From contig JAGPVP010000104.1 of assembly GCA_018066965.1 (NCBI GenBank), forward strand, positions 1 through 64,000: DNA of 64,000 nt, read 5' to 3'. The notes below the pieces were generated by a model that was not told the DNA's origin, did no database searches, and saw only the letters and a program-made list of their open reading frames with translations. Both the position numbers and the translations under genes were made by a program. Position 1 is the first letter of the stretch; each line of letters starts with the position of its first letter. This stretch comes from Zhongshania sp. GTDB lineage: Bacteria; Pseudomonadota; Gammaproteobacteria; Pseudomonadales; Spongiibacteraceae. This document shows, one piece after another, positions 7,838 through 17,364 of the stretch.

Positions 7838-8317
7838 TCAGCCCGCCCCCACCACGTCGGCAATGCCCCCTGGCTTGGCTGATGCAGTGAAACCTGTCAT
7901 TCGAAACCACGCCTGCTCTCGTTCACTTTGACGTTGGGCAACTGCCAACAGCTTTGCATCAGCTCGTCCATTTAGCTCGATTGCTGCGTCGATTGCCGCT
8001 TGCTTGAGTTCGCGGCTTTGCTTACGTATTTCAGCCAAGCTACTGTCTGCGGTCAGAAGCGGAGATCGCCATAATTCATCCGCAATGTCAGCGCCATCAA
8101 CTGTGACCAAATCACGTAATAACTGATGATAGTCTGCAGCCTCTTCTCGCTCGTAGCGCAGCTCAAACTCTTGCACATCAATAAGCCAGGCCAGGGTGGC
8201 AGCAATCATGCCGGCCTGTTCTTGGGCAAAACGCGCCTCAGGCGGCAGGGCCGGAATAACAGAACGCTCCAACGACGCCTTCATGGATGCTAGTTGCTGA
8301 TTAACCGTCGGCGTCAT
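7838..8317 (-). CDS. Small helical protein of the catabolic cluster, unknown function
   Basis: A 159-residue soluble protein, mostly charged helix (for example LIDVQEFELRYEREEAADYH and SLAEIRKQSRELKQAAIDAA), with no signal peptide or membrane segment. I do not recognise the family. It starts one base after the stop of the APH-like kinase gene, so the two are coupled and probably act together; a partner or stabilising subunit of the kinase is a guess. Last gene of the minus-strand arm. Confidence 0.75.
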   Translation of the reverse strand: MTPTVNQQLASMKASLERSVIPALPPEARFAQEQAGMIAATLAWLIDVQEFELRYEREEAADYHQLLRDLVTVDGADIADELWRSPLLTADSSLAEIRKQSRELKQAAIDAAIELNGRADAKLLAVAQRQSEREQAWFRMTGFTASAKPGGIADVVGAG

Positions 8318-8318
8318 G

Positions 8319-9449
8319 CTACTGCTCCTCTAAAAGCATTGTGTTTAATTCGTTCACAAAATAAAAACCAAGGCCCGGCACAATATTCATCATGGTATCG
8401 AGGTGGGTCATGCGATCAGCTGCCAGTCTAGGGCCGGTGGCGCAGCAGGCGATAATCGCCCAATACATATTCAGCACGGTGTAATAACGCAAACGTTCGG
8501 GATCAACATGTAAACCAGAGAGCCGAGTGTATTCCTTAATGAAGGCATTTTTCTCGACTAGGCCGGCACAATAATAAGTACCATCTTCTACCGTACCGTA
8601 GCCAGGGAGCATGGCGTAAGCTAAGTCCATATGCCGATCACCGAGATAGCCTGCCTCCCAATCCAGTATCGCGGTTATTTCATCGGTGTCTTCGTCGAAT
8701 AAAAAATTGCCATTCCGATAGTCGCCATGCACTAAAGACACATGATCTACAACGGGGCGATTGCGCCACAACCACGCCCGCGCCAAAGCAACCGTAGGGT
8801 GCGCCTCAACAGCGTCTTCGTCCCACACTCTGTCCCAATGCGCCAAACTCCAATCTACTGCATCACTTGTGCCTTCACGGGGAATTAGCAGCGCAGACAA
8901 ATCCTTATCGCGCCAGTCCATGGTGTGCAAGGCGGCAAGATGTCGAATATATTGCGGCGCTAGTTTTTCGCGGTGCTTGCCATACACCGTACCCAATCCC
9001 GTTGCTTTACCCGCACCCTCTTTAGGCGACGCCACACCAGGGTTGAAAGAACATATCAGAGCTGGCCGGCCAAAATATTCATCGCTGTCACTAACCCAAA
9101 ATGCCTCAGGCACTGGGAGCACACCGGCAACGGCCTGAATAATTTGAAACTCACGCAGGCGACAGGTTTCGATCACTGAACACAGCGGGCTCATCCGCAA
9201 GATCATTTTAACGAGTTGACGATCTGCATTAGGGCGAAACAAATCAAAAACGTATTGCTCCATCGAGGCACCACCACTCAAGGCGTTTAAATTGCGCACC
9301 TCAAAAGTCTCGCCCACCTGCTCAGTTAAAAACCGGTCCAACTGATCAGAAATAAAAGAAACATCCGTAGGCTTATATTCCACCCTACCCCGCAGAGCCA
9401 TTTTTCGATCAAGCGCCGCCGCCAAGGTCGGCTCTATCACGGCGGCCAT
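8319..9449 (-). CDS. APH/ACAD10-like phosphotransferase
   Basis: A 376-residue protein of the aminoglycoside-phosphotransferase superfamily with a protein-kinase-like fold. Motifs: the catalytic loop LVHGDYRNGNFLF and the metal-binding ILDWEAGYLGDRHMDLAY, both in the C-terminal half; the N-terminal lobe begins NLNALSGGASMEQYVF. Relatives next to acyl-CoA or alcohol catabolic genes (ACAD10-like) phosphorylate hydroxylated catabolic intermediates rather than antibiotics. Its ATG overlaps the stop of the upstream oxidoreductase by one base (TAATG). A role in activating or eliminating a hydroxyl group in this pathway is inferred. Confidence 0.85.
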   Translation of the reverse strand: MAAVIEPTLAAALDRKMALRGRVEYKPTDVSFISDQLDRFLTEQVGETFEVRNLNALSGGASMEQYVFDLFRPNADRQLVKMILRMSPLCSVIETCRLREFQIIQAVAGVLPVPEAFWVSDSDEYFGRPALICSFNPGVASPKEGAGKATGLGTVYGKHREKLAPQYIRHLAALHTMDWRDKDLSALLIPREGTSDAVDWSLAHWDRVWDEDAVEAHPTVALARAWLWRNRPVVDHVSLVHGDYRNGNFLFDEDTDEITAILDWEAGYLGDRHMDLAYAMLPGYGTVEDGTYYCAGLVEKNAFIKEYTRLSGLHVDPERLRYYTVLNMYWAIIACCATGPRLAADRMTHLDTMMNIVPGLGFYFVNELNTMLLEEQ

Positions 9450-10510
9450 TACCGCGCCGCCTTTTGCGCACGAAATGCAGCGGTGGTCGACGCCAGTTGC
9501 GCAGGCGACGCACCGTGTAGCACAAGGTGATCTAAACCGGCGTCAATGTAATCTTGCAAACGTTTAGCACAGTGTTCCGCCGAGCCAACAACACAGCCAG
9601 TCTCGACCCATTCCCTGGGAATCATATAGCCAATATCGATTAATTCCTGCCGCGTAAAGGCCTGATCAGCAATCGCGTCTCCCTGCATTTTAGGGTGCGA
9701 CATAATCGCCTCCATCGCAGCGCGATCCCAACCGTTGGCCTTTAATAATTGCTCGGAAACACCGGGAAATGAGAAGTGCGTAATCATGCGGGCATTCATC
9801 ACCAGATGCTCTTCTTCTGGTGTCATTTCCGGCGCGCACAACATAGTGTTGTAGATTTTTAGGGAAGCGGGATCTCTGTCATGACGCTCACAAGCAGCAC
9901 GTAATTTTTTACAAATTTCGGCGGTAGCATCCACCGTTAATTCACAACCGATAAAAACCCCATCAAATAAACGAGCGCTTAAATCAATACCCATAGGGCC
10001 AGGCACCCAGCTTGAGAATATGATCGGCGGGCGCGGCGCCGTTGGCGGATCTGGCATACGCAAATTACTAAATTTACCTAAATCACCCTCGTAATTAACG
10101 GTCTTACCCGCCCACAAATCGATAAGAATTTGAGCGTAATCACCAAAGCCTCGCATAGTTGGTCTAAGCATGCCGCCCTTTTCATTTATGCCCCATAAAC
10201 CTCGGGCCAAACCAAGCAACAAGCGGTCACCAAAAATTTGCTGAAAGGTGGCACCCATTGCGGCAGTGACCGCCGGTGTGCGGGTACCTATAGCAACCGA
10301 ACCCATACCGAATTTAATGGTTTCGGTGCGCGCTGCCACTGCGCCAGCGTGAACCCCAAGTTCCTTCATGTCGAAACGTTCGGCAATCCACGCACTAGTT
10401 AAACCTATGCGTTCAGCCTCAACGGCCTCTTCCATAGCTCGGGCGGGGTCTTTAATTCGACCACCCAGCAAGTAAACACCCAACTCGTCTAAGGGACTTA
10501 ATTTTTCCAT
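9449..10510 (-). CDS. Luciferase-like (LLM) flavin/F420-dependent oxidoreductase
   Basis: A 353-residue single-domain TIM-barrel oxidoreductase of the bacterial-luciferase family, resembling a subgroup common in mycobacteria (TIGR03857-like). Visible features: ERIGLTSAWIAERFD near the N-terminus, TIKFGMGSVAIGTRTPA, then DRLLLGLARGLWG, and a C-terminal VGSAEHCAKRLQDYIDAG. Members use FMNH2 or coenzyme F420. F420 synthesis is unusual in gammaproteobacteria and no F420 gene is visible here, so the cofactor is open. ATG 10510 follows an AGGAGG site. Translationally coupled to the kinase after it. Confidence 0.85.
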   Translation of the reverse strand: MEKLSPLDELGVYLLGGRIKDPARAMEEAVEAERIGLTSAWIAERFDMKELGVHAGAVAARTETIKFGMGSVAIGTRTPAVTAAMGATFQQIFGDRLLLGLARGLWGINEKGGMLRPTMRGFGDYAQILIDLWAGKTVNYEGDLGKFSNLRMPDPPTAPRPPIIFSSWVPGPMGIDLSARLFDGVFIGCELTVDATAEICKKLRAACERHDRDPASLKIYNTMLCAPEMTPEEEHLVMNARMITHFSFPGVSEQLLKANGWDRAAMEAIMSHPKMQGDAIADQAFTRQELIDIGYMIPREWVETGCVVGSAEHCAKRLQDYIDAGLDHLVLHGASPAQLASTTAAFRAQKAAR

Positions 10511-10663
10511 AAAACCTCCTGCGAATATAATTTTTATTAATTGCGTTTGGTTGTTGCGCTAAATTTTATTGGGGAGTTCTAAATGCGAAAAATGGATTCC
10601 ACTCCGACCACTATTGATATAACAATCAATACTAGCGGAGATGGAAAACAATTAGCAAGCCCG

Positions 10664-11440
10664 TTAGGCAAGTAATATATTGTGACCGTAATCGACGGGG
10701 ATAATGACGCCATTAACAAAGCTTGACGCCTGACTGGTCAACAGCAATAAGGTACCTTCCAGTTCCTCCACATTGCCGATGCGCTTAGAAGGCAGTCTTG
10801 CAACTTCAGCCTGCCCTTGCTCTGTTTCAAAATACCAATCCACCATTTCGGTCATAAAATAGCCCGGTGCAATGGCATTGCAACGAATTTTAGTATCGAA
10901 CATATCCGCTGCAATTTGTTTGGTAAGTTGGTTCAAGGCTGCTTTTACACTGCCGTAGCAAGGTACATTTTTTAAGGTTTGAATGCCGGTGATAGAGGTG
11001 ATGTTAACGATACTACCCGGCACATCCAACGGAAGAAGACGCTTCGAGAATTCTCGTGCCATGCGCATGGTGCCAGTTAAATTTACATTGAGTAGGTTTC
11101 CCCACTCTTCATCCTCAACATCAGGAAAGGGTTTAAATTGAATCTGGCCTGCGTTATTAACCAAAATATCAACCACGCCAAATGCTTCGTAAGCTTGATC
11201 GAATACTTGTTTAACGCTTTCGGTGTTGCCGATATCCAGAGCATACGCGACGGCCTTACCACCTGCCTCGTTAATCTCCTTAGCCACTTGTTCCACTTTA
11301 TCTAAACGGCGCGCGGCGCATATCACGGTCGCCCCAGATTTCGCTAATGCTTTTGCAAAGCTGACGCCCATACCTGTGCCCGAGCCTGTCACCAAAGCAA
11401 CGCGACCTTTATTTGAGAACATATTTTCTAAATAAGACAT
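10664..11440 (-). CDS. Short-chain dehydrogenase/reductase
   Basis: A 258-residue classical SDR, an NAD(P)-dependent alcohol/ketone oxidoreductase. It has the nucleotide-binding motif TGSGTGMGVSFAKAL (residues about 19-33), NNAG, the catalytic serine in SIVNITSITG, and YGSVK for the Tyr/Lys pair. C-terminal residues include VDYGHN. The length is standard. It lies 153 nt upstream of the LLM gene and 56 nt after the DUF1214-like gene in the same direction. The substrate is unknown; a hydroxyl intermediate of the pathway is likely. Confidence 0.9.
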   Translation of the reverse strand: MSYLENMFSNKGRVALVTGSGTGMGVSFAKALAKSGATVICAARRLDKVEQVAKEINEAGGKAVAYALDIGNTESVKQVFDQAYEAFGVVDILVNNAGQIQFKPFPDVEDEEWGNLLNVNLTGTMRMAREFSKRLLPLDVPGSIVNITSITGIQTLKNVPCYGSVKAALNQLTKQIAADMFDTKIRCNAIAPGYFMTEMVDWYFETEQGQAEVARLPSKRIGNVEELEGTLLLLTSQASSFVNGVIIPVDYGHNILLA

Positions 11441-11496
11441 AGTATTTTTCCTTTGACTATTATTTTTAAACCGAATTTTTTATAAGAAATAGTGAA

Positions 11497-12702
11497 TTAA
11501 AGGCAAGCCCTTCTCACAACAGATTCCGCTCGCCGCCTCAATAAATCACTTCGTTGATCTGTGGTAATACGCAGTTTTCTGTCATCGACTATTGAAGAAA
11601 CCTCGGACAATTTAACCCGCCTGATTGTGGGTATGGGTGCCGTTTTCGCCCGAAAGTATCGCAGCGACAACAAACCCGTTCGATGATTAGCCGCATCCAA
11701 CCAATTCATAACACCGGGGTCTTCATGAGAAATTACCGCTCGAAACACCCCGTCTTGACCGAGTACAGCTTGAAAACCATTTATGGAGGTTTGACGGAGA
11801 TTCCAGTCCCGCGCATCCCAATACTGACTATACAACTGAATGCTCCAGTACTTAGCTTCTGGCGGCACCACCTCGATGATCAAGGCCTCATCAAGCTCGC
11901 ACTCGTAGTTGGCCTTGCCATAACGTAACTCAGCCCAGCCGATAGACACCTCATCAATCCGCACCGTGTTTATCGTGTCTTGGTAATAGCTCTGCACTTG
12001 CTCAGCAAAAAACGCCGGCAAGTTGTGCAACCAATCAATAAGTAAACGAGTACGCTGGGCAATAAGCTCCGGGGTAATGGCTGGCGCGGGGTAATGCGCG
12101 TCGTCACGGGTAATTTGCAACTGCGCAGGCTCTTCATTAATCCAGTCATAGAAATACTGACGGAAAATTAGATCGCCAAGACCATCGGGGATTTTCACCC
12201 AGTTGCCAGGCTGCTCGTTTTTACTGAGCACTATTTCGATATTGCCATCGGCATCGCATTCAAATTCGCTACAGCGATCAAACAAGGCCCAGCCACCAAT
12301 ATGGGCGAAATGCCCCTGGCGGGTTTCAATGTCCATCATATGCGCGGTGCCGCGACGGCCCTTGATGCGATACACATAGTCGCCGTGTATCGGCGCCCAC
12401 TGATAAAGCGCGTCTGCCGCCGGCAGACCGTACTGAATACGTGACGATAAAAAAGTGAAAAAACTGGGATACTCTGGGTTCCACGACTCCATTGTCATGG
12501 GAATGGCGCCAGCAACAAGTCGCGTTAAATACCGCACACCTTCGGCTCTGGCCATCTCATCAGTAATTCGAGGATCATCCCAAACAATACCTTGTAACTG
12601 CTTAATCGCCGCGCTTAATGCATCCCACAATTCTGGTGATTCCGTGCTTAGGGGCAAGCTATCGCCCCAACTATCTAGCTGGTAACTAATCATTTGTGAC
12701 AA
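11497..12702 (-). CDS. DUF1214-like protein
   Basis: A 401-residue soluble protein resembling DUF1214/DUF1254-type proteins in its C-terminal half (YWSIQLYSQYWDARDWNLRQ, then VFRAVISHEDPGVMNWLDAANHRTG). Related sequences often sit near sulfotransferase, LLM and TetR genes in actinobacteria and sphingomonads, but no enzyme activity is established for them to my knowledge. No signal peptide is visible. It lies 77 nt after the sulfotransferase gene on the same strand, so it belongs to the same operon. Function unknown. Confidence 0.75.
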   Translation of the reverse strand: MSQMISYQLDSWGDSLPLSTESPELWDALSAAIKQLQGIVWDDPRITDEMARAEGVRYLTRLVAGAIPMTMESWNPEYPSFFTFLSSRIQYGLPAADALYQWAPIHGDYVYRIKGRRGTAHMMDIETRQGHFAHIGGWALFDRCSEFECDADGNIEIVLSKNEQPGNWVKIPDGLGDLIFRQYFYDWINEEPAQLQITRDDAHYPAPAITPELIAQRTRLLIDWLHNLPAFFAEQVQSYYQDTINTVRIDEVSIGWAELRYGKANYECELDEALIIEVVPPEAKYWSIQLYSQYWDARDWNLRQTSINGFQAVLGQDGVFRAVISHEDPGVMNWLDAANHRTGLLSLRYFRAKTAPIPTIRRVKLSEVSSIVDDRKLRITTDQRSDLLRRRAESVVRRACL

Positions 12703-12779
12703 CTCCTAACTATTCATATGAAGGTAGCCAAGCTCTGATTAATCGCAGGAATTGCAATTAATCAGAGTGGTGTTAGTTG

Positions 12780-13973
12780 TTAGCCAAAAATTTTCAGATA
12801 CTCAGAAAACCGCGCCTTGATAGCATCTTCACTTAAGCCATACTCTTCAAGGGTATAGCTATACTCGCCCCAGTGATGTGCTGGGCGACTTTCATTATAG
12901 TTTTTGCATCCATCAATCGCTTCGGGCGTCATTTTGCGCCCTGCTTTTTCGTAAATTCGCTGAATAACGGCGACGGGGTCATCGCATATTTCTGAGAAAT
13001 TCGCATTCACAATACGATCTAGCGGAAGACAGTCGCGCACCGCTAAGTAGCGATCCGTCAGCGACGCCCAATACTCAAACCACTCCTGCCCAACCTCAAC
13101 AGGGTCAATATCGTCAGTCGTCGTTTTACGCAGCTCTTGAATGGTTGTCGCAAATGATGGCACTGTTTTTACTGGGTCGCGGTGACAATGAACTACCGTC
13201 GCATCAGGAAGATATTCAAACAGAATATCGAGGTAACCAATGTGCACAGGGGACTTCATAATCCACGGCCGGCCTTTGGCTCCGCCATCCTGCCACTGCA
13301 AATACTGCATCATTTCAAACAAAATTTTGTAGGTCGGACGCGGGTCGCACTTTACCGAAAACTCGCGAAATGTCGGCGCTCTCGCCAGCATTGCCGATAC
13401 CGCTGACTCAAAAGACATCTCCATAATAAAGAGTTCTTCATCAGGCTCTTGCGCCTCCATGGGATGACGCGCCATCCAACCCGGAAATTGGGTGCGGAAG
13501 GTATCTTCTATAATTTTTCCAAACTCAATACGACCAACTGGGTTGCCAGCTTCTTCATCAGGAAATGGCGCGGGATTCAATAAACGCCATACTTCTAAGC
13601 GCTGCACATCTGGGTCACCCGACATGACTCGCTGTAATTTTGAGGTTCCTGTTCGTGGTAGCCCCACCACCACAATCGGTGCGACAATTTTCTCATCGCG
13701 TATTTCTGGATGACGTTTTACATCATCGATATAGCGCAGGCGATTGACCAATAAACGCAGTATTTCCTGGCCTTGCCCGATTACACCACCTTCATGGAGG
13801 TTTGCTTCGTTACGTAGGGAATTACACAAAATTTCCAAACCCGTGGTAAATCCCATATCGCCAAAATCTGAAAGCCCAGTGGCGCTTTTTGCTGCCGCCA
13901 GCATGTCTTCAACATAGAATGGTATGGCTTCTGGCATTGCTGGAGCTTCTGCACTTGCTGCTTGATTCGTCAT
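12780..13973 (-). CDS. Sulfotransferase-family protein, copy 1
   Basis: A 397-residue protein with the PAPS-binding pattern of sulfotransferases: the 5'-phosphosulfate loop VVGLPRTGTSKLQ (about residues 103-115) and the 3'-phosphate region VVHCHRDPVKTVPS further on. It is clearly a paralogue of the protein at 16186-17364; both share an N-terminal FGDMGF motif, EVWRLLNPAPFPD/AFWRLWNPAPFPD and a C-terminal YSLEEFGLS/YTLEEYGLS motif. It heads the minus-strand arm. The family may transfer sulfate to a hydroxylated substrate; the acceptor cannot be told from sequence, and some bacterial members have no demonstrated sulfotransferase activity. Confidence 0.85.
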   Translation of the reverse strand: MTNQAASAEAPAMPEAIPFYVEDMLAAAKSATGLSDFGDMGFTTGLEILCNSLRNEANLHEGGVIGQGQEILRLLVNRLRYIDDVKRHPEIRDEKIVAPIVVVGLPRTGTSKLQRVMSGDPDVQRLEVWRLLNPAPFPDEEAGNPVGRIEFGKIIEDTFRTQFPGWMARHPMEAQEPDEELFIMEMSFESAVSAMLARAPTFREFSVKCDPRPTYKILFEMMQYLQWQDGGAKGRPWIMKSPVHIGYLDILFEYLPDATVVHCHRDPVKTVPSFATTIQELRKTTTDDIDPVEVGQEWFEYWASLTDRYLAVRDCLPLDRIVNANFSEICDDPVAVIQRIYEKAGRKMTPEAIDGCKNYNESRPAHHWGEYSYTLEEYGLSEDAIKARFSEYLKIFG

Positions 13974-14431
13974 TACATCACCTAAAGTTATTATTGATAA
14001 TCTAGCTAAAACTCATCGAAGTTTCTCGAAGCAGTCTCAAGCCACCATCGCCGACACAATTAAATAAGAAATTATCAACACGAATAGAATGTAAAACTCT
14101 AAAAATATTTTTAATTTTTATGAAAAATATCGACGACAACTTAAAGAAAACCGAGTTATTTTTATTTCGAGGATCAATATAGCAATGACAAGGAGAGTGG
14201 AACAAGGAAATGCAGGTCAGCTTTTAGGAATACAAATAGACATTACAAGCCACTGAATAATAAGGATTTTTTATACCACCTCAACAACCATTTTTATTTA
14301 AGAGTAACTTTTAGGGCGATTTACAGCAATCCCAGTAAATCACTCACTCACAATATATGGCTTTCATCTATAAAATTAGGTAAGTTATTTTCAAATATTG
14401 AAGATAATAAATTTTATCTCGCGATCCAAAT
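13974..14431. other. AT-rich intergenic region between sulfotransferase and tetR
   Basis: About 460 bases with no convincing gene. It is markedly richer in A and T than its surroundings. It must contain the promoter of the minus-strand arm (start 13973) and the end of the tetR transcript. The one frame on the minus strand (14002-14205) is low-complexity and has no family resemblance. Confidence 0.5.
14370..14417. repeat. Long imperfect inverted repeat downstream of tetR
   Basis: Outer arms ATAAAATT and AATTTTAT, and inner arms TTATTTTCA and TGAAGATAA, frame a short loop, giving an AT-rich hairpin just past the tetR stop codon. It may end the tetR transcript or protect its 3' end, but it lacks a GC-rich stem. 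Confidence 0.4.
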
Positions 14432-15082
14432 CTAGTCCGCAAATATGGCGTAGCACATTTTAGCTAGGGTATTACGAAACTCAGGATCATCAATAAAATC
14501 GATATTATCGCTAATTAAAGAATACACCATGAGCTGAGCTGCGCGGCCAAGGGCGTGAACACGCAACATATCATTACTGGAAGGTTTAAAGTCTGAACAT
14601 AATTTTAACTGTTCATAAATAAAGGATTCAGTAGAGCTTTCGGGGGCGATATTAACATCTAGCTCTTGCCAAGCATCCAGAAAGCCTTTGTGTTCAACAA
14701 GTAGTGTTTTATCAACTTCGAGCACTTTACGATGAATTTCAATAGACCAATCTAGCAGCCAATAAATAAATGACAGTACGGTGTGCTCTTTATCTCTTGG
14801 AAATTCTTGATAGCCCTTTAAATGCTGCGTTCTGATTACGAGGCGATAAACCTCAAACACAATAGTATCGAGATTGGGGAAATATTGATAAATGGACGAC
14901 TTTGGCACACCGGAAACCACTTCCAGCGTTGTTGTAGATAAAGCGCCACGACCGTGTTCTAACAAAATGCTATGCGCCGCCTCGACAATGGCATTAACAA
15001 CCTTGATAGATCGATCTTGTTTCGGCTGGCGACGCATTGCGTCATTGGGGCGAATAAGCTGATACGGCGTGTCTTTTTCCAT
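14432..15082 (-). CDS. TetR-family transcriptional regulator
   Basis: TetR-type repressor with an N-terminal helix-turn-helix (ALSTTTLEVVSGVPKSSIYQ then YFPNLDTIVFEVYR) and a variable ligand-binding C-terminal half. It is divergent from the DapB-like gene at 15145 and sits between the two arms of the cluster, so it likely controls one or both. The start is uncertain: ATG 15082 (216 residues) is chosen. An upstream TTG at 15106 would add eight residues, and ATG 15037 would still keep the DNA-binding domain. None has a strong ribosome site. Confidence 0.85.
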   Translation of the reverse strand: MEKDTPYQLIRPNDAMRRQPKQDRSIKVVNAIVEAAHSILLEHGRGALSTTTLEVVSGVPKSSIYQYFPNLDTIVFEVYRLVIRTQHLKGYQEFPRDKEHTVLSFIYWLLDWSIEIHRKVLEVDKTLLVEHKGFLDAWQELDVNIAPESSTESFIYEQLKLCSDFKPSSNDMLRVHALGRAAQLMVYSLISDNIDFIDDPEFRNTLAKMCYAIFAD

Positions 15083-15144
15083 TTTATTAGTAAGCACCAA
15101 AGCCAATAAATTTAAAACCCATTAACAAGACCGGAAATACTAAC

Positions 15145-16164
15145 ATGAAAACTTCAAACATCTCGCCGCGCATTGCAGTATATGGCCTCGGCTTTGTCGG
15201 TCAGCAACTTGCTGGCTTCGCCTTAGACAAAGGCTGGGAAATTGTCGGCGCCTACAATCGCGCCGGCGACAAGGTGGGCCAGGATCTCGGCACACTCATC
15301 GGCAGGGAGCCTATCGGTCTTTTAATAGAGGATTGCGAGGCAGCTAATTACTCGCAGCTAAACGCAGACCTAGCCTTTGTTGCGGTCTCTGATCGCCTAG
15401 AAGATAACTTCCCCTCATATCAGCGCCTAATGTCTGCGGGGGCAAACATTCTTTGTCACGGCGCAGAATCTTGTAATCCCCGCCGCCTCAACCCCGCGAT
15501 TGCAGAACAGATTCAGGCGCTGGCCCTTGAGCATGGCGTTACTTTCACCGGCAGCGGTATATGGGATATGACTCGGATTTGGGCCGGCATTCTGTCGGTA
15601 GGACCAAACACTGAAATCGAATCTATGACCCACACCTCCTTTACCGACATCGCTCGCCAAGGCGTGCACTTACTTCGCTTTTGTGGCGCCGGCTTGACGG
15701 TAAAAGAGTTTGAAGAAAAAAGCGTGGCCGGAAATGGTGGCTTAGGTGGCATCGCTATCATCCCACCACTGTGCGTGGCAGATGCCTTGGGGCTTGATGC
15801 CATCAACGTAAAAGAAAAAGTTGAACCCATCATTTGGGAAGAAGACCACCAAAGTCACTGGCTAAATGAAACCATACCTGCCGGCCATGTGGTCGGCACC
15901 AGAATGCACGTTGATATTACTACCCGAGAGGGAGTAACCCTACATAACTGTTTTGAATATAGGGACTTCAAGCCCAATGAGGTAGAGCAATTAATCTGGA
16001 AAGTGAAAGGCAAACCCAGCATGGAGGTGCGGATTGTGCGAGAGGCCTCTCATATGGCGTCGGCCAGCAGTTTGTTTAATCGCACCCCTGACGTACTGGC
16101 AGCCGAACCCGGTATCCGCGAAATTTGGACTTATCAGCCACTACGCTCCAGCGCTCTAAACTAA
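15145..16164 (+). CDS. DapB-like NAD(P)-dependent dehydrogenase
   Basis: A 339-residue protein with an N-terminal Rossmann fold (IAVYGLGFVGQQLAGFALDK) and a C-terminal half like the dihydrodipicolinate reductase / 2,4-diaminopentanoate dehydrogenase family (TGSGIWDMTRIWAGILS, VAGNGGLGGIAI). It is far from a true DapB, and related proteins are found beside sulfotransferase and LLM genes in mycobacteria. The product may be an oxidoreductase acting on an amine or carbonyl intermediate. First gene of the plus arm, directly followed by the second sulfotransferase. Confidence 0.8.
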   Translation: MKTSNISPRIAVYGLGFVGQQLAGFALDKGWEIVGAYNRAGDKVGQDLGTLIGREPIGLLIEDCEAANYSQLNADLAFVAVSDRLEDNFPSYQRLMSAGANILCHGAESCNPRRLNPAIAEQIQALALEHGVTFTGSGIWDMTRIWAGILSVGPNTEIESMTHTSFTDIARQGVHLLRFCGAGLTVKEFEEKSVAGNGGLGGIAIIPPLCVADALGLDAINVKEKVEPIIWEEDHQSHWLNETIPAGHVVGTRMHVDITTREGVTLHNCFEYRDFKPNEVEQLIWKVKGKPSMEVRIVREASHMASASSLFNRTPDVLAAEPGIREIWTYQPLRSSALN

Positions 16165-16185
16165 ATGAAGAAAAGGTACACAATA

Positions 16186-17364
16186 ATGACGCTTTCCCAA
16201 TCCGATATTTCTGCCGCTCTCGATCCCGATGCGCTGATGAATCAAGCAATCGAAATCAGCGGTCTACGCAGCTTTGGCGATATGGGTTTTATCGAGCCCA
16301 TGAAAATGCTGCTTAATAGCATCCCTCTGCATATCACACTCCACCAAGAGGGGCTTGAGAGTATTCAGGCAGATGTTGTGCGCTGCTTAGTCAATCGCCT
16401 GCGATTTCAACAAGACCTGAGTGCCCACCCAGAAATTCTGCAAGAGCAGGTTGATGATCCCATCATTGTTTTAGGCCTAGGTCGCTCTGGCACCACTAAA
16501 ATGCAAAAAATTCTGTCGGCGCCAGACAGTGTGCAAAAAATGGCGTTCTGGCGCTTATGGAATCCCGCCCCCTTTCCCGACGCAATCCCCGGTCAGCCAG
16601 ATCCGCGCATTGCTCAAGCGGGCAGTGCCAATTTGGTAGCAACAGACAACTCTGCGGTTCACGCCGCCCATCATATGGAAGAACAAGAAGTAGACGAAGA
16701 CTGGCTACTGGGCATGTTTACCTTTGACGACTGGATTTGGAATCAAATGGTATTCTCCCCAAGCTATTTAGACTGGGTTATGGCCCGCCCCAGCGCTGCC
16801 CCATTTGCCTACATGAAATCACTGGTGCAATACCTGCAATGGCAGGACGGCGGCAGAAAAGATCGGCCATGGGTGATGAAAGGTGTGGGCTATATCGCCC
16901 ATATGGAATCGCTGCTTGCCAACTTCCCCAAGGCCACAATTTTGCACACCCATCGCGACCCACTGCAAACCATTCCCTCGTGGGCTAAATTTGTCAGTGC
17001 GATGTGGACGCTAAGATCGGCACCTGTCGACAAGCATGAGATTGGTCGCGAAGTTATGCGTTACTGGGGCATGGCAATGGATCGCTACCTTGCCTCTAGG
17101 GACAAGTTGGGTTTGGATCGCTGCATCGTCGATGCTCGCTATGCGGATGTGCGGGAAAACCCCATGAGTATTGTCGAGCAAGTTTACGAGCGCGCCGGAC
17201 GCAAAATAACTGAGCCAGCGTATCAATCAATGGCAGCGTGGCACAGCAATAATGAACAGCACCGCTTTAGTAAACACGAATACTCTCTCGAAGAATTTGG
17301 TCTGAGTGAAGCGATGATTAACGAGCGCTTCGGCGATTATATTAGACGATTTATTCAACGCTGA
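16186..17364 (+). CDS. Sulfotransferase-family protein, copy 2
   Basis: A 392-residue paralogue of the protein at 12780-13973. PAPS-binding motifs: the loop IIVLGLGRSGTTKMQK and the region ILHTHRDPLQTIPSW. The start chosen is ATG 16186, preceded by AAAAGG at a normal distance; an in-frame ATG at 16165 directly abuts the previous stop and has no ribosome site. The N-terminal SFGDMGFIEPMKMLL and C-terminal HEYSLEEFGLSEAMI match the first copy, but the phosphosulfate loop differs (GRSGTT against PRTGTS). The two may act on different substrates or form one complex. Confidence 0.85.
   Translation: MTLSQSDISAALDPDALMNQAIEISGLRSFGDMGFIEPMKMLLNSIPLHITLHQEGLESIQADVVRCLVNRLRFQQDLSAHPEILQEQVDDPIIVLGLGRSGTTKMQKILSAPDSVQKMAFWRLWNPAPFPDAIPGQPDPRIAQAGSANLVATDNSAVHAAHHMEEQEVDEDWLLGMFTFDDWIWNQMVFSPSYLDWVMARPSAAPFAYMKSLVQYLQWQDGGRKDRPWVMKGVGYIAHMESLLANFPKATILHTHRDPLQTIPSWAKFVSAMWTLRSAPVDKHEIGREVMRYWGMAMDRYLASRDKLGLDRCIVDARYADVRENPMSIVEQVYERAGRKITEPAYQSMAAWHSNNEQHRFSKHEYSLEEFGLSEAMINERFGDYIRRFIQR

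Follow-up and report, generated by a model that had tools for sequence, protein, structure and literature searches.

A conserved, modular sulfotransferase and F420-kinase locus of Zhongshania with a putative role in small-molecule modification

Gene content and organization of the locus

The window, a stretch of 64,000 nucleotides from a genome very close to that of Zhongshania aliphaticivorans, contains a locus of nine genes (Table 1), all of which are intact open reading frames at the positions assigned to them by an earlier sequence-only reading. Their spacing is operon-like: sm and aph are 1 nt apart, aph and llm overlap by 1 nt, the dapB-like gene and st2 abut with a gap of 0 nt, and the gaps are 56 nt between sdr and the DUF1214 gene and 77 nt between the DUF1214 gene and st1. 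The gap between st1 and tetR is 458 nt. Two sulfotransferases had been described as lying around a TetR regulator; both copies are present, but the regulator heads the minus arm and is not a centre of symmetry.

Table 1. Features of the locus, with coordinates in the window
Feature	Coordinates	Strand	Description	Family match
sm	7838..8317	-	cassette gene 3; helical kinase partner, 159 aa	no Pfam family
aph	8319..9449	-	cassette gene 2; APH/LvaA-like small-molecule kinase	PF01636, 78 bits
llm	9449..10510	-	cassette gene 1; LLM oxidoreductase, F420-dependent family TIGR03857	Bac_luciferase PF00296, 136 bits
sdr	10664..11440	-	core gene; short-chain dehydrogenase	PF00106, 185 bits
DUF1214 protein	11497..12702	-	core gene	PF06742, 44 bits
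st1	12780..13973	-	core gene; PAPS-type sulfotransferase	Sulfotransfer_3 PF13469, 118 bits
non-coding block upstream of st1	14201..14220	.	candidate operator or leader; conserved by eye, four species	
tetR	14432..15106	-	core gene; TetR-like regulator	TetR_N PF00440, 21.2 bits
dapB-like	15145..16164	+	core gene; native-amine-dehydrogenase-family oxidoreductase	DAP_DH_C PF19328, 39 bits
st2	16165..17364	+	optional second sulfotransferase	Sulfotransfer_3, 102 bits

By sequence, tetR is only weakly identified as such, since its score lies below the PF00440 cut-off of 24 bits. Orthologues with 61-100% identity occupy the equivalent position in relatives, and, judged against them, the protein probably starts 8 codons after the TTG. 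The conserved block in the tetR-st1 spacer, recognized in an alignment of the window with loci L036, L037 and L038, is a possible operator or leader.

Conservation and modularity

Among 21 genomes of the family that were searched, eight, including that of the window, possess a DUF1214 orthologue, and a five-gene core (DapB-like / TetR–sulfotransferase–DUF1214–SDR) is present in all eight, with the DapB-like gene interrupted in one of them. In Z. marina the locus has the same gene order, at 86-97% identity, and a second st-DUF1214-SDR module is found elsewhere in the window's own genome (C40; 48/48/58% identity). The homologues are thus not always scattered but keep the core order in 8/8 genomes, and the locus is a real cluster, as had been proposed, in the sense of a conserved neighbourhood of genes. 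Because the order in Z. marina is identical and the five-gene core is universal among these eight genomes, the clustering is not attributable to chance. That the genes are chance neighbours with unrelated roles, which would accord with the separability of the cassette and ST2, is extremely improbable, being disfavoured by this conservation of order and by the recurrence of modules both within the same genome and across phyla.

The proposal of one single pathway is unsupported, because the LLM–kinase–small protein cassette is detachable and ST2 is optional: ST2 occurs at five of the eight core loci, and the cassette occurs in two of the eight core genomes and is absent from one 98%-identical strain. 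The description of the combination as unusual in a gammaproteobacterium was too strong, as ST-DUF1214(-SDR) sets are found in Solimonas, Nevskia, Panacagrimonas, Hydrocarboniphaga and Spongiibacter, and FbiC in 19 of the 21 family genomes. The suggested likeness to mycobacterial clusters has a partial parallel in a plasmid of Tsukamurella (order Mycobacteriales), which carries DUF1214-SDR-sulfotransferase, and plasmids of N. resinovorum and Croceicoccus carry DUF1214, LLM, kinase and sulfotransferase genes inside 21 kb.

Sulfotransferases and the DUF1214 protein

ST1 and ST2 are diverged paralogues (37% identical) that pass the PF13469 cut-off of 27 and retain intact motifs, GLPRTGT and HRDP..S in ST1 and GLGRSGT and HRDP..S in ST2, which we take to be the 5'-phosphosulfate loop and the 3'-phosphate R...S motif. 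The PAPS-motif residues R107, G109, R265 and S273 are invariant among 43 sulfotransferases, and ST1 matches PDB entry 2zq5 with E 1.2e-35. Genes of PAPS metabolism accompany some homologous loci: the order is DUF1214-ST-VOC-CysQ-CysD-CysN in Paraburkholderia sprentiae, CysC/CysD are divergent from DUF1214-SDR-ST in Tsukamurella, and CysQ and DUF1214 are 4.5-6.3 kb apart in N. aromaticivorans, ES2-1 and THN1. An APS-kinase-domain gene lies in the flanks examined at 9 of 74 DUF1214 loci; these nine, with Neomelitea among them, represent two lineages only (Spongiibacteraceae and Solimonas), and no such gene was seen at four further Zhongshania loci of this kind (L060, L079, L089, L106). Among ten DUF1214 plasmid regions examined, six have no sulfotransferase, including three with CysQ alone, and three have neither sulfotransferase nor PAPS/PAP genes (one, L159, by search). 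PAPS genes were not found inside the cluster, and queries with CysQ, CysD and CysC had no matches in the whole 64-kb window at E 1e-5; APS kinase is encoded on another contig of the same genome. The sulfotransferase assignment is backed by the intact PAPS motifs and by the PAPS/PAP genes adjoining some homologous loci, and the presence of PAPS-making or PAP-recycling genes at such loci makes PAPS-dependent sulfonation likely.

Sulfotransferase and DUF1214 genes adjoin on the same strand in 55 of the 74 DUF1214 loci, the pair being found in several phyla (Proteobacteria, Myxococcota, Acidobacteria, Actinobacteria). The neighbour test found no same-strand sulfotransferase at the other 19, some of which are on short contigs, and at 23 of the 74 a neighbouring sulfotransferase is joined by a same-strand SDR within 1.6 kb. 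The structure model of the DUF1214 protein (pLDDT 90) has the fold of 6ans, an uncharacterised protein (Z 41.6), and no lyase is among its clear fold matches; no paper on "sulfotransferase" with "DUF1214" was found in the literature searched. It is a speculative and improbable idea that ST1 and DUF1214 form a deoxygenation pair, in which sulfate would be placed as a leaving group on an unactivated hydroxyl and expelled by DUF1214 acting as a lyase, in parallel with an LvaA/ACAD11-like phosphate route of the cassette; if it is true, a widespread domain gains a catalytic role.

Oxidoreductases, kinase and small helical protein

The dehydrogenase previously labelled DapB-like is present, but it is closer to native amine dehydrogenases: its best match in the PDB is 6iaq (E 3.4e-30, residues 9-327), followed by 7xdu and the amine dehydrogenase 6iau, and Glu108 of its HGAES motif aligns with a Glu of 6iaq. 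In the available text of PMC11164908, the P3 Glu of native amine dehydrogenases is catalytic, and Glu108 would, from the alignment, be the P3 Glu. The match to 6iaq and 6iau spans the whole protein and aligns a Glu at the catalytic position, but it reaches only about 100 bits and places the protein in the family by sequence.

Hydroxylation of the substrate, one of the steps formerly proposed, is not borne out, since the nine genes include no hydroxylase and the LLM enzyme falls in an F420-dependent family. It matches TIGR03857 with 330 bits (cut-off 218.4), and its closest PDB structure is the F420-dependent reductase 1z69; F420 synthesis is encoded in the same genome by a cluster on contig C90 (NpdG, CofE, CofD, CofC and CofGH, all above NCBIfam cut-offs). 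Across the order, FbiC occurs in 24 of 29 genomes with the LLM versus 59 of 264 without it (Fisher p 1.7e-10, kinship ignored). An APH kinase gene neighbours the LLM gene in 8 of 9 plasmid regions examined, and adjoins it at only 10 of 30 order-level loci with 1.5-kb flanks, including the window and Z. marina.

The catalytic motifs HGDYRNGN and LDWE of the kinase are intact, corresponding to HxDxxxxN and D(W/F)E, which we take to be those of APH-fold kinases, and its PDB matches are weak, including ACAD11 (8v3v, E 2e-7). The small protein is all-helical in its AlphaFold model (mean pLDDT 85) and has no Pfam or NCBIfam match; DUF6285 (PF19802), presumably the family of LvaB, does not match it at E up to 10, and hhalign gives a probability of 4%. 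Its homologues were found at ten loci in 6 of the 21 family genomes, the window's own included, and an APH kinase gene is directly 5' in 10/10. A related pair in the same genome (kinase 35% and small protein 24% identical) lies inside a meta-cleavage cluster. The intact catalytic motif and the constant partner protein back the kinase assignment.

Proposed function and alternatives

From the gene content, conservation and separability observed here, together with intact catalytic motifs, the capacity for F420 and PAPS and pairings that recur across phyla, we infer the chemistry and regulation of a TetR-controlled, modular small-molecule-modifying locus. In this explanation, held with moderate confidence, the SDR or the DapB-like enzyme would produce a hydrophobic alcohol or amine for the core to sulfonate, and the F420-kinase cassette would phosphorylate a hydroxyl, probably of a molecule related to the fat-like substrate of the core. 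The SDR and the DapB-like enzyme would interconvert a ketone and an alcohol or amine on the hydrophobic substrate; ST1 would transfer sulfonate from PAPS to the resulting group; DUF1214, a frequent sulfotransferase partner, would act on or present the sulfonated intermediate; and ST2, where present, would sulfonate a second position or product. The LLM enzyme would reduce a substrate bond with F420H2, and the kinase with its small helical partner would phosphorylate the hydroxyl much as LvaA-LvaB do. The best reading, suggested from the outset, combines small-molecule sulfonation with phosphorylation and is backed by the PAPS motifs, the PAPS/PAP neighbours, the kinase motif and the partner protein. 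The sulfate and phosphate may be either retained (conjugation) or lost (activation for elimination).

Retention would suit a detoxification system, in which a TetR-type sensor detects a toxic hydrophobic compound, reductases make alcohols or amines, and the sulfotransferases and kinase tag the end products as in phase II metabolism. This possible but rather unlikely alternative fits the divergence of tetR from the oxidoreductase-sulfotransferase pair, the broad specificity of the enzyme families and the variable presence of ST2 and the cassette, and has a precedent in the bacterial cholesterol sulfonation by BT_0416, near putative PAPS genes, described in the available text of PMC9417993; against it, the nine genes include no exporter, and homologous sets share clusters with genes of beta-oxidation or steroid type (FadD3, thiolase, MaoC), or with genes for MaoC, CoA-transferase and P450.

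Loss of the groups would imply catabolic activation, which is considered unlikely: sulfate esters (from ST1 and DUF1214) and phosphate esters (from the APH kinase and sm) would be leaving groups, allowing unreactive hydroxyls to be taken off while a sterol, a terpenoid or a hydroxy fatty acid is degraded, the part that phosphate plays for LvaA/LvaC and ACAD10/11. It is favoured by the kinase-sm relative in the meta-cleavage cluster and by four actinobacterial LLM-kinase pairs near MaoC, thiolase or alcohol dehydrogenase genes. Rv3529c-Rv3530c-Rv3531c of M. tuberculosis, which we take to be a sulfotransferase-SDR-DUF1214-like set, point the same way. These neighbouring genes are in the cholesterol gene list, with a possible oxidoreductase, in the available text of PMC6429209; and phosphorylation of 4-hydroxyacyl-CoA by LvaA and ACAD10/11, followed by elimination of the phosphate, is a precedent in what is available of PMC12440821 and PMC11342911. 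Against catabolic activation, the nine genes include no acyl-CoA dehydrogenase or acyl-CoA ligase, one ACAD query and one FadD3 query had no matches in the window, the clear fold matches of DUF1214 lack a lyase, and a KstD-like protein scores under the cut-off and lies, by eye, outside any steroid cluster. No steroid/cholesterol (KstR-type) ring-degradation genes are among the nine; searches of the window with a KstD-like protein, extradiol dioxygenase, acetaldehyde dehydrogenase, aldolase and FadD3 gave no matches, and an HsaD-like query had a single 52-residue match.

That the locus makes a sulfated lipid or secondary metabolite is quite improbable: the two sulfotransferases and the possible amine dehydrogenase look like tailoring enzymes, but the nine genes include no core biosynthetic enzyme such as a PKS, NRPS or terpene synthase.

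Significance and comparison with known systems

The sulfotransferase–DUF1214 pair, found in multiple phyla and linked at some loci to PAPS supply, places DUF1214 in a biochemical setting that can be tested. The cassette is a concrete candidate use of F420 in marine gammaproteobacteria, and close relatives with and without it permit direct comparison of its function; the reason for F420 production in Proteobacteria is among the open questions named in the available text of a 2021 review (PMC8498797).

The TIGR03857 LLM-phosphotransferase pairs of Rhodococcus, Streptomyces, Pseudonocardia, Novosphingobium and Croceicoccus share with the window the LLM family (31-40% identity in members aligned) and the adjoining APH kinase; those of Rhodococcus DK180, R. 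rhodochrous, R. qingshengii and Streptomyces are divergent and near MaoC or alcohol dehydrogenase genes. Unlike the window, eight such loci have no small protein annotated directly after the kinase, and their kinases are only 19-24% identical to that of the window. The lva operon of Pseudomonas putida (LvaA-LvaB) and ACAD10/11, as presented in the available parts of PMC6692424, PMC12440821 and PMC11342911, have in common with the window an APH-type kinase with intact motifs and a small partner protein directly after it, but the nine genes include no acyl-CoA dehydrogenase, synthetase or LvaC, and sm is not detectably a DUF6285 protein. The order ST-DUF1214-SDR of the window differs from DUF1214-SDR-ST in Tsukamurella. 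The BT_0416 cholesterol sulfotransferase cluster of Bacteroides, in the portion of PMC9417993 available, combines a PAPS sulfotransferase gene, putative PAPS-synthesis genes beside it and a hydrophobic alcohol substrate, a gene layout that recurs in the related modules of P. sprentiae and Tsukamurella; the window has no adjacent PAPS genes, and adds DUF1214, an SDR and an amine-dehydrogenase-like enzyme.

A conserved, modular accessory locus

The accessory locus is real, conserved and modular. The genome that carries it comprises 3.66 Mb in 127 contigs (84% complete, 6% contamination), and of the named records found Zhongshania aliphaticivorans BC9_2A is the nearest, with 98.2% DNA identity over 11.8 kb extending from the SDR gene through a flank read from sequence as malate-synthase-like and isocitrate-lyase-like. 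Gene order shared with BC9_2A and Z. marina speaks against an artefact of binning. A DUF1214 orthologue with at least 62% identity is present in 8 of the 21 Spongiibacteraceae genomes, that of the window included, and the order of the core (dapB-like/tetR–st1–duf1214–sdr) is unchanged in all eight, being taken for two of them from the BC9_2A and Z. marina records, which are equated with the family genomes G006 and G013. The second sulfotransferase gene (st2) accompanies the core in five of the eight genomes, and a cassette encoding an LLM oxidoreductase, an APH kinase and a 159-aa small protein (llm–aph–sm) in two, those of the window and of Z. marina. G004 carries an insert within its DapB-like gene, and the ORFs of this insert read as an IS21-type element.

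In BC9_2A, sdr is followed by lysR, with an unmatched spacer of approximately 200 bp replacing the three cassette genes. The cassette is cleanly missing from this 98%-identical strain, so that closely related genomes with and without it are available for comparison. The cassette of Z. marina aligns together with its flanks as a single block of 86% identity. Judged from these alignments, vertical descent with loss in BC9_2A would be the simplest history; gain is possible.

Positions of features of the locus and of related regions
Feature	Sequence	Locus	Positions
llm–aph–sm cassette	window		7838-10510
Non-coding block between tetR and st1	window		14201-14220
Site of the missing cassette	BC9_2A	L035	12040-12294
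Split DapB-like gene	genome G004	L192	8940-12640
Second sulfotransferase–DUF1214–SDR region	own contig C40	L020	5913-12529
Kinase–sm pair and meta-cleavage cluster	own contig C113	L019	836-8711
F420 biosynthesis cluster	own contig C90	L032	4491-10212

Gene content and family assignment

The family scan of the window covered nine genes plus the LysR gene, and the remainder was reached by specific queries and scripts. All nine genes of the sequence-only reading are intact ORFs where it placed them, and its family names hold except that sm matches no family and that the labels "DapB-like" and "LLM" required correction; the TetR label corresponds to a Pfam match of 21.2 bits, slightly below the cut-off of 24. 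The best matches of the DapB-like protein among solved proteins belong to the native amine dehydrogenase family (6iaq, which we take to be MsmeAmDH, E 3.4e-30; and 6iau), and the glutamate of its HGAES motif is aligned at the expected catalytic place. PMC11164908 describes the catalytic role of that glutamate in amine dehydrogenases and identifies 6IAU as CfusAmDH. Participation in lysine synthesis was rejected, since the closest solved proteins are either amine dehydrogenases or entries of the same family that are titled "dihydrodipicolinate reductase" and unnamed. No annotated sulfotransferase lies beside the plasmid-borne DapB homologues in the 4 of 14 records read. The gaps between genes are operon-like (1 nt and -1 nt in sm–aph–llm, 0 nt in dapB–st2), and the non-coding block between tetR and st1, which is conserved in four species and by eye more so than its surroundings, is possibly an operator or leader element.

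The sulfotransferase–DUF1214 unit and its possible link to PAPS

Parts of the locus recur elsewhere in the genome. On contig C40, an APH kinase, a DUF7064 protein and an AraC-type regulator precede a paralogous sulfotransferase, DUF1214 protein and SDR that share 48%, 48% and 58% identity, respectively, with those of the window; on contig C113, a DUF1214 gene adjoins a sulfotransferase gene. Among 74 DUF1214 loci in the named-genome collection, 55 have a sulfotransferase neighbour on the same strand, and in 23 a sulfotransferase is accompanied by an SDR; in the other 19 no same-strand sulfotransferase neighbour was found, several contigs ending nearby. The sulfotransferase-bearing loci include those of Solimonas, Nevskia, Panacagrimonas, Spongiibacter, Myxococcota, Acidobacteria and Acidimicrobiia. 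Clustering of the neighbours of the 74 loci returned mainly known genes and presumably spurious ORFs (e.g., one of 449 aa). The parts of the locus belong to known families. It is set apart by how they are combined, by a sulfotransferase–DUF1214 unit that recurs across phyla and by an F420–kinase cassette that is detachable.

After exclusion of 13 DUF1214 loci and one sulfotransferase locus in which the match contained a stop or X, and omission of further rows, 51 DUF1214 and 43 sulfotransferase sequences were aligned. Residues R107, G109, H170, E179, K240, R265 and S273 are invariant among the sulfotransferases, and the motifs (presumably those named P-loop and 3'-PB) are intact in both copies of the window, which, from their sequences, look like genuine sulfotransferases; 2zq5 and 2z6v are presumably the mycobacterial enzymes STF1 and STF9.

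Genes that make the sulfonate donor PAPS or act on PAP lie near DUF1214 in some homologous regions. P. sprentiae has the consecutive genes DUF1214–ST–VOC–CysQ–CysD–CysN, and on a Tsukamurella plasmid a regulator and CysD–CysC are divergent from DUF1214–SDR–ST. In N. aromaticivorans, ES2-1 and THN1, the distance between CysQ and DUF1214 is 4.5-6.3 kb, with no sulfotransferase seen in these CysQ-bearing stretches. The 10 plasmid DUF1214 regions sampled from 28 records (two without annotation, examined by similarity search) include five with a PAPS/PAP gene, four with a sulfotransferase and three with neither. APS-kinase domains are matched in the flanks of 9 of the 74 DUF1214 loci (a raw count), all in Spongiibacteraceae or Solimonas, and in none of four further Zhongshania loci of the same type. 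The single APS kinase of the genome is on contig C27, and none is found within the 64-kb window. A 233-aa neighbour on C113, considered as a candidate CysQ, has no similarity to it and was rejected.

The DUF1214 model is confident (pLDDT 90). Its matches above Z 8 are 6ans, on which 358 residues superimpose with Z 41.6 and rmsd 2.0, and VPA0735 and VPA0106, with Z of approximately 13; the titles of these three state no function. Across the 51 aligned sequences twenty positions are invariant, including R52, R57, R61, R181 and R348, and the candidate arginine-rich site that they may outline would suit an anionic ligand.

The F420–kinase cassette

The LLM protein belongs to the F420-dependent family TIGR03857 (330 bits against a cut-off of 218), and on this match, together with the presence of F420 genes, a role as a hydroxylase was rejected. 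Contig C90 encodes NpdG, CofE, CofD, CofC and fused CofGH (FbiC), all above NCBIfam cut-offs, a complete F420 biosynthesis cluster in a marine gammaproteobacterium. A Pfam match to CofD alone is insufficient evidence for F420 because the family also matches in E. coli. FbiC is encoded by 19 of the 21 Spongiibacteraceae genomes and, among 293 Pseudomonadales genomes, by 24 of 29 with LLM versus 59 of 264 without (Fisher p 1.7e-10, ignoring kinship); the five LLM genomes without FbiC are G064, G078, G220, G277 and G295, of which four are less than 90% complete. An APH kinase adjoins LLM in eight of nine plasmid regions sampled from 13 records, the exception being M. avium. At the level of the order, where 30 loci have flanks of 1.5 kb, only 10 show this neighbour, and two of these are the window and Z. 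marina. Plasmids of N. resinovorum and Croceicoccus hold DUF1214, LLM–kinase and sulfotransferase genes within at most 21 kb.

The kinase keeps the motifs HGDYRNGN and LDWE. Its putative partner sm is predicted to be all-helical, and a Pfam search up to E 10 assigned it to no family; a structure search returned no significant match. An APH kinase gene is directly 5' of the sm homologue in 10 of 10 loci found, and an APH-type kinase gene is upstream of DUF6285 in 9 of 9 (L139-L147), which makes DUF6285 likely to be a general kinase-partner family. A claim of identity between sm and LvaB/DUF6285 was rejected despite the same position, profile comparison giving 4% probability; the two families, having no detectable homology, may be separate solutions to one partner role. 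On C113, a kinase–sm pair and a DUF7064/7065 protein lie beside a meta-cleavage cluster, in which an extradiol-type dioxygenase and an HsaD-like hydrolase score below equivalog cut-offs and an acetaldehyde dehydrogenase and an aldolase above them.

Predicted pathway and comparison with known systems

In the likeliest mechanism, the sulfotransferases would sulfonate an alcohol or amine that the SDR and the amine-dehydrogenase-like enzyme had set. Where the optional cassette is present, LLM would most likely reduce a related substrate with F420H2 and the APH kinase, with sm, phosphorylate a related substrate. Steroids are a possible substrate class, to which the pointers come from other loci and genomes: the N. 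aromaticivorans DUF1214 region has a steroid-type context, a KstD-like protein (below cut-off) is encoded elsewhere in the window genome, and Rv3529c–Rv3531c appear in a cholesterol gene list in PMC6429209. Queries for ring degradation gave no convincing match in the window.

Phosphorylation by LvaA and ACAD10/11 is a precedent for the phosphate step of the cassette: according to PMC12440821 and PMC11342911, a 4-hydroxyacyl-CoA is phosphorylated and the phosphate can then be eliminated, and PMC6692424 reports that LvaA interacts with LvaB, a 12-kDa protein. The boldest reading, by analogy, is that sulfate may serve as a leaving group with DUF1214, as phosphate does in LvaA and ACAD10/11. The cluster differs from the lva operon in having no acyl-CoA dehydrogenase and so is not an lva-type operon, but it may work partly like one.
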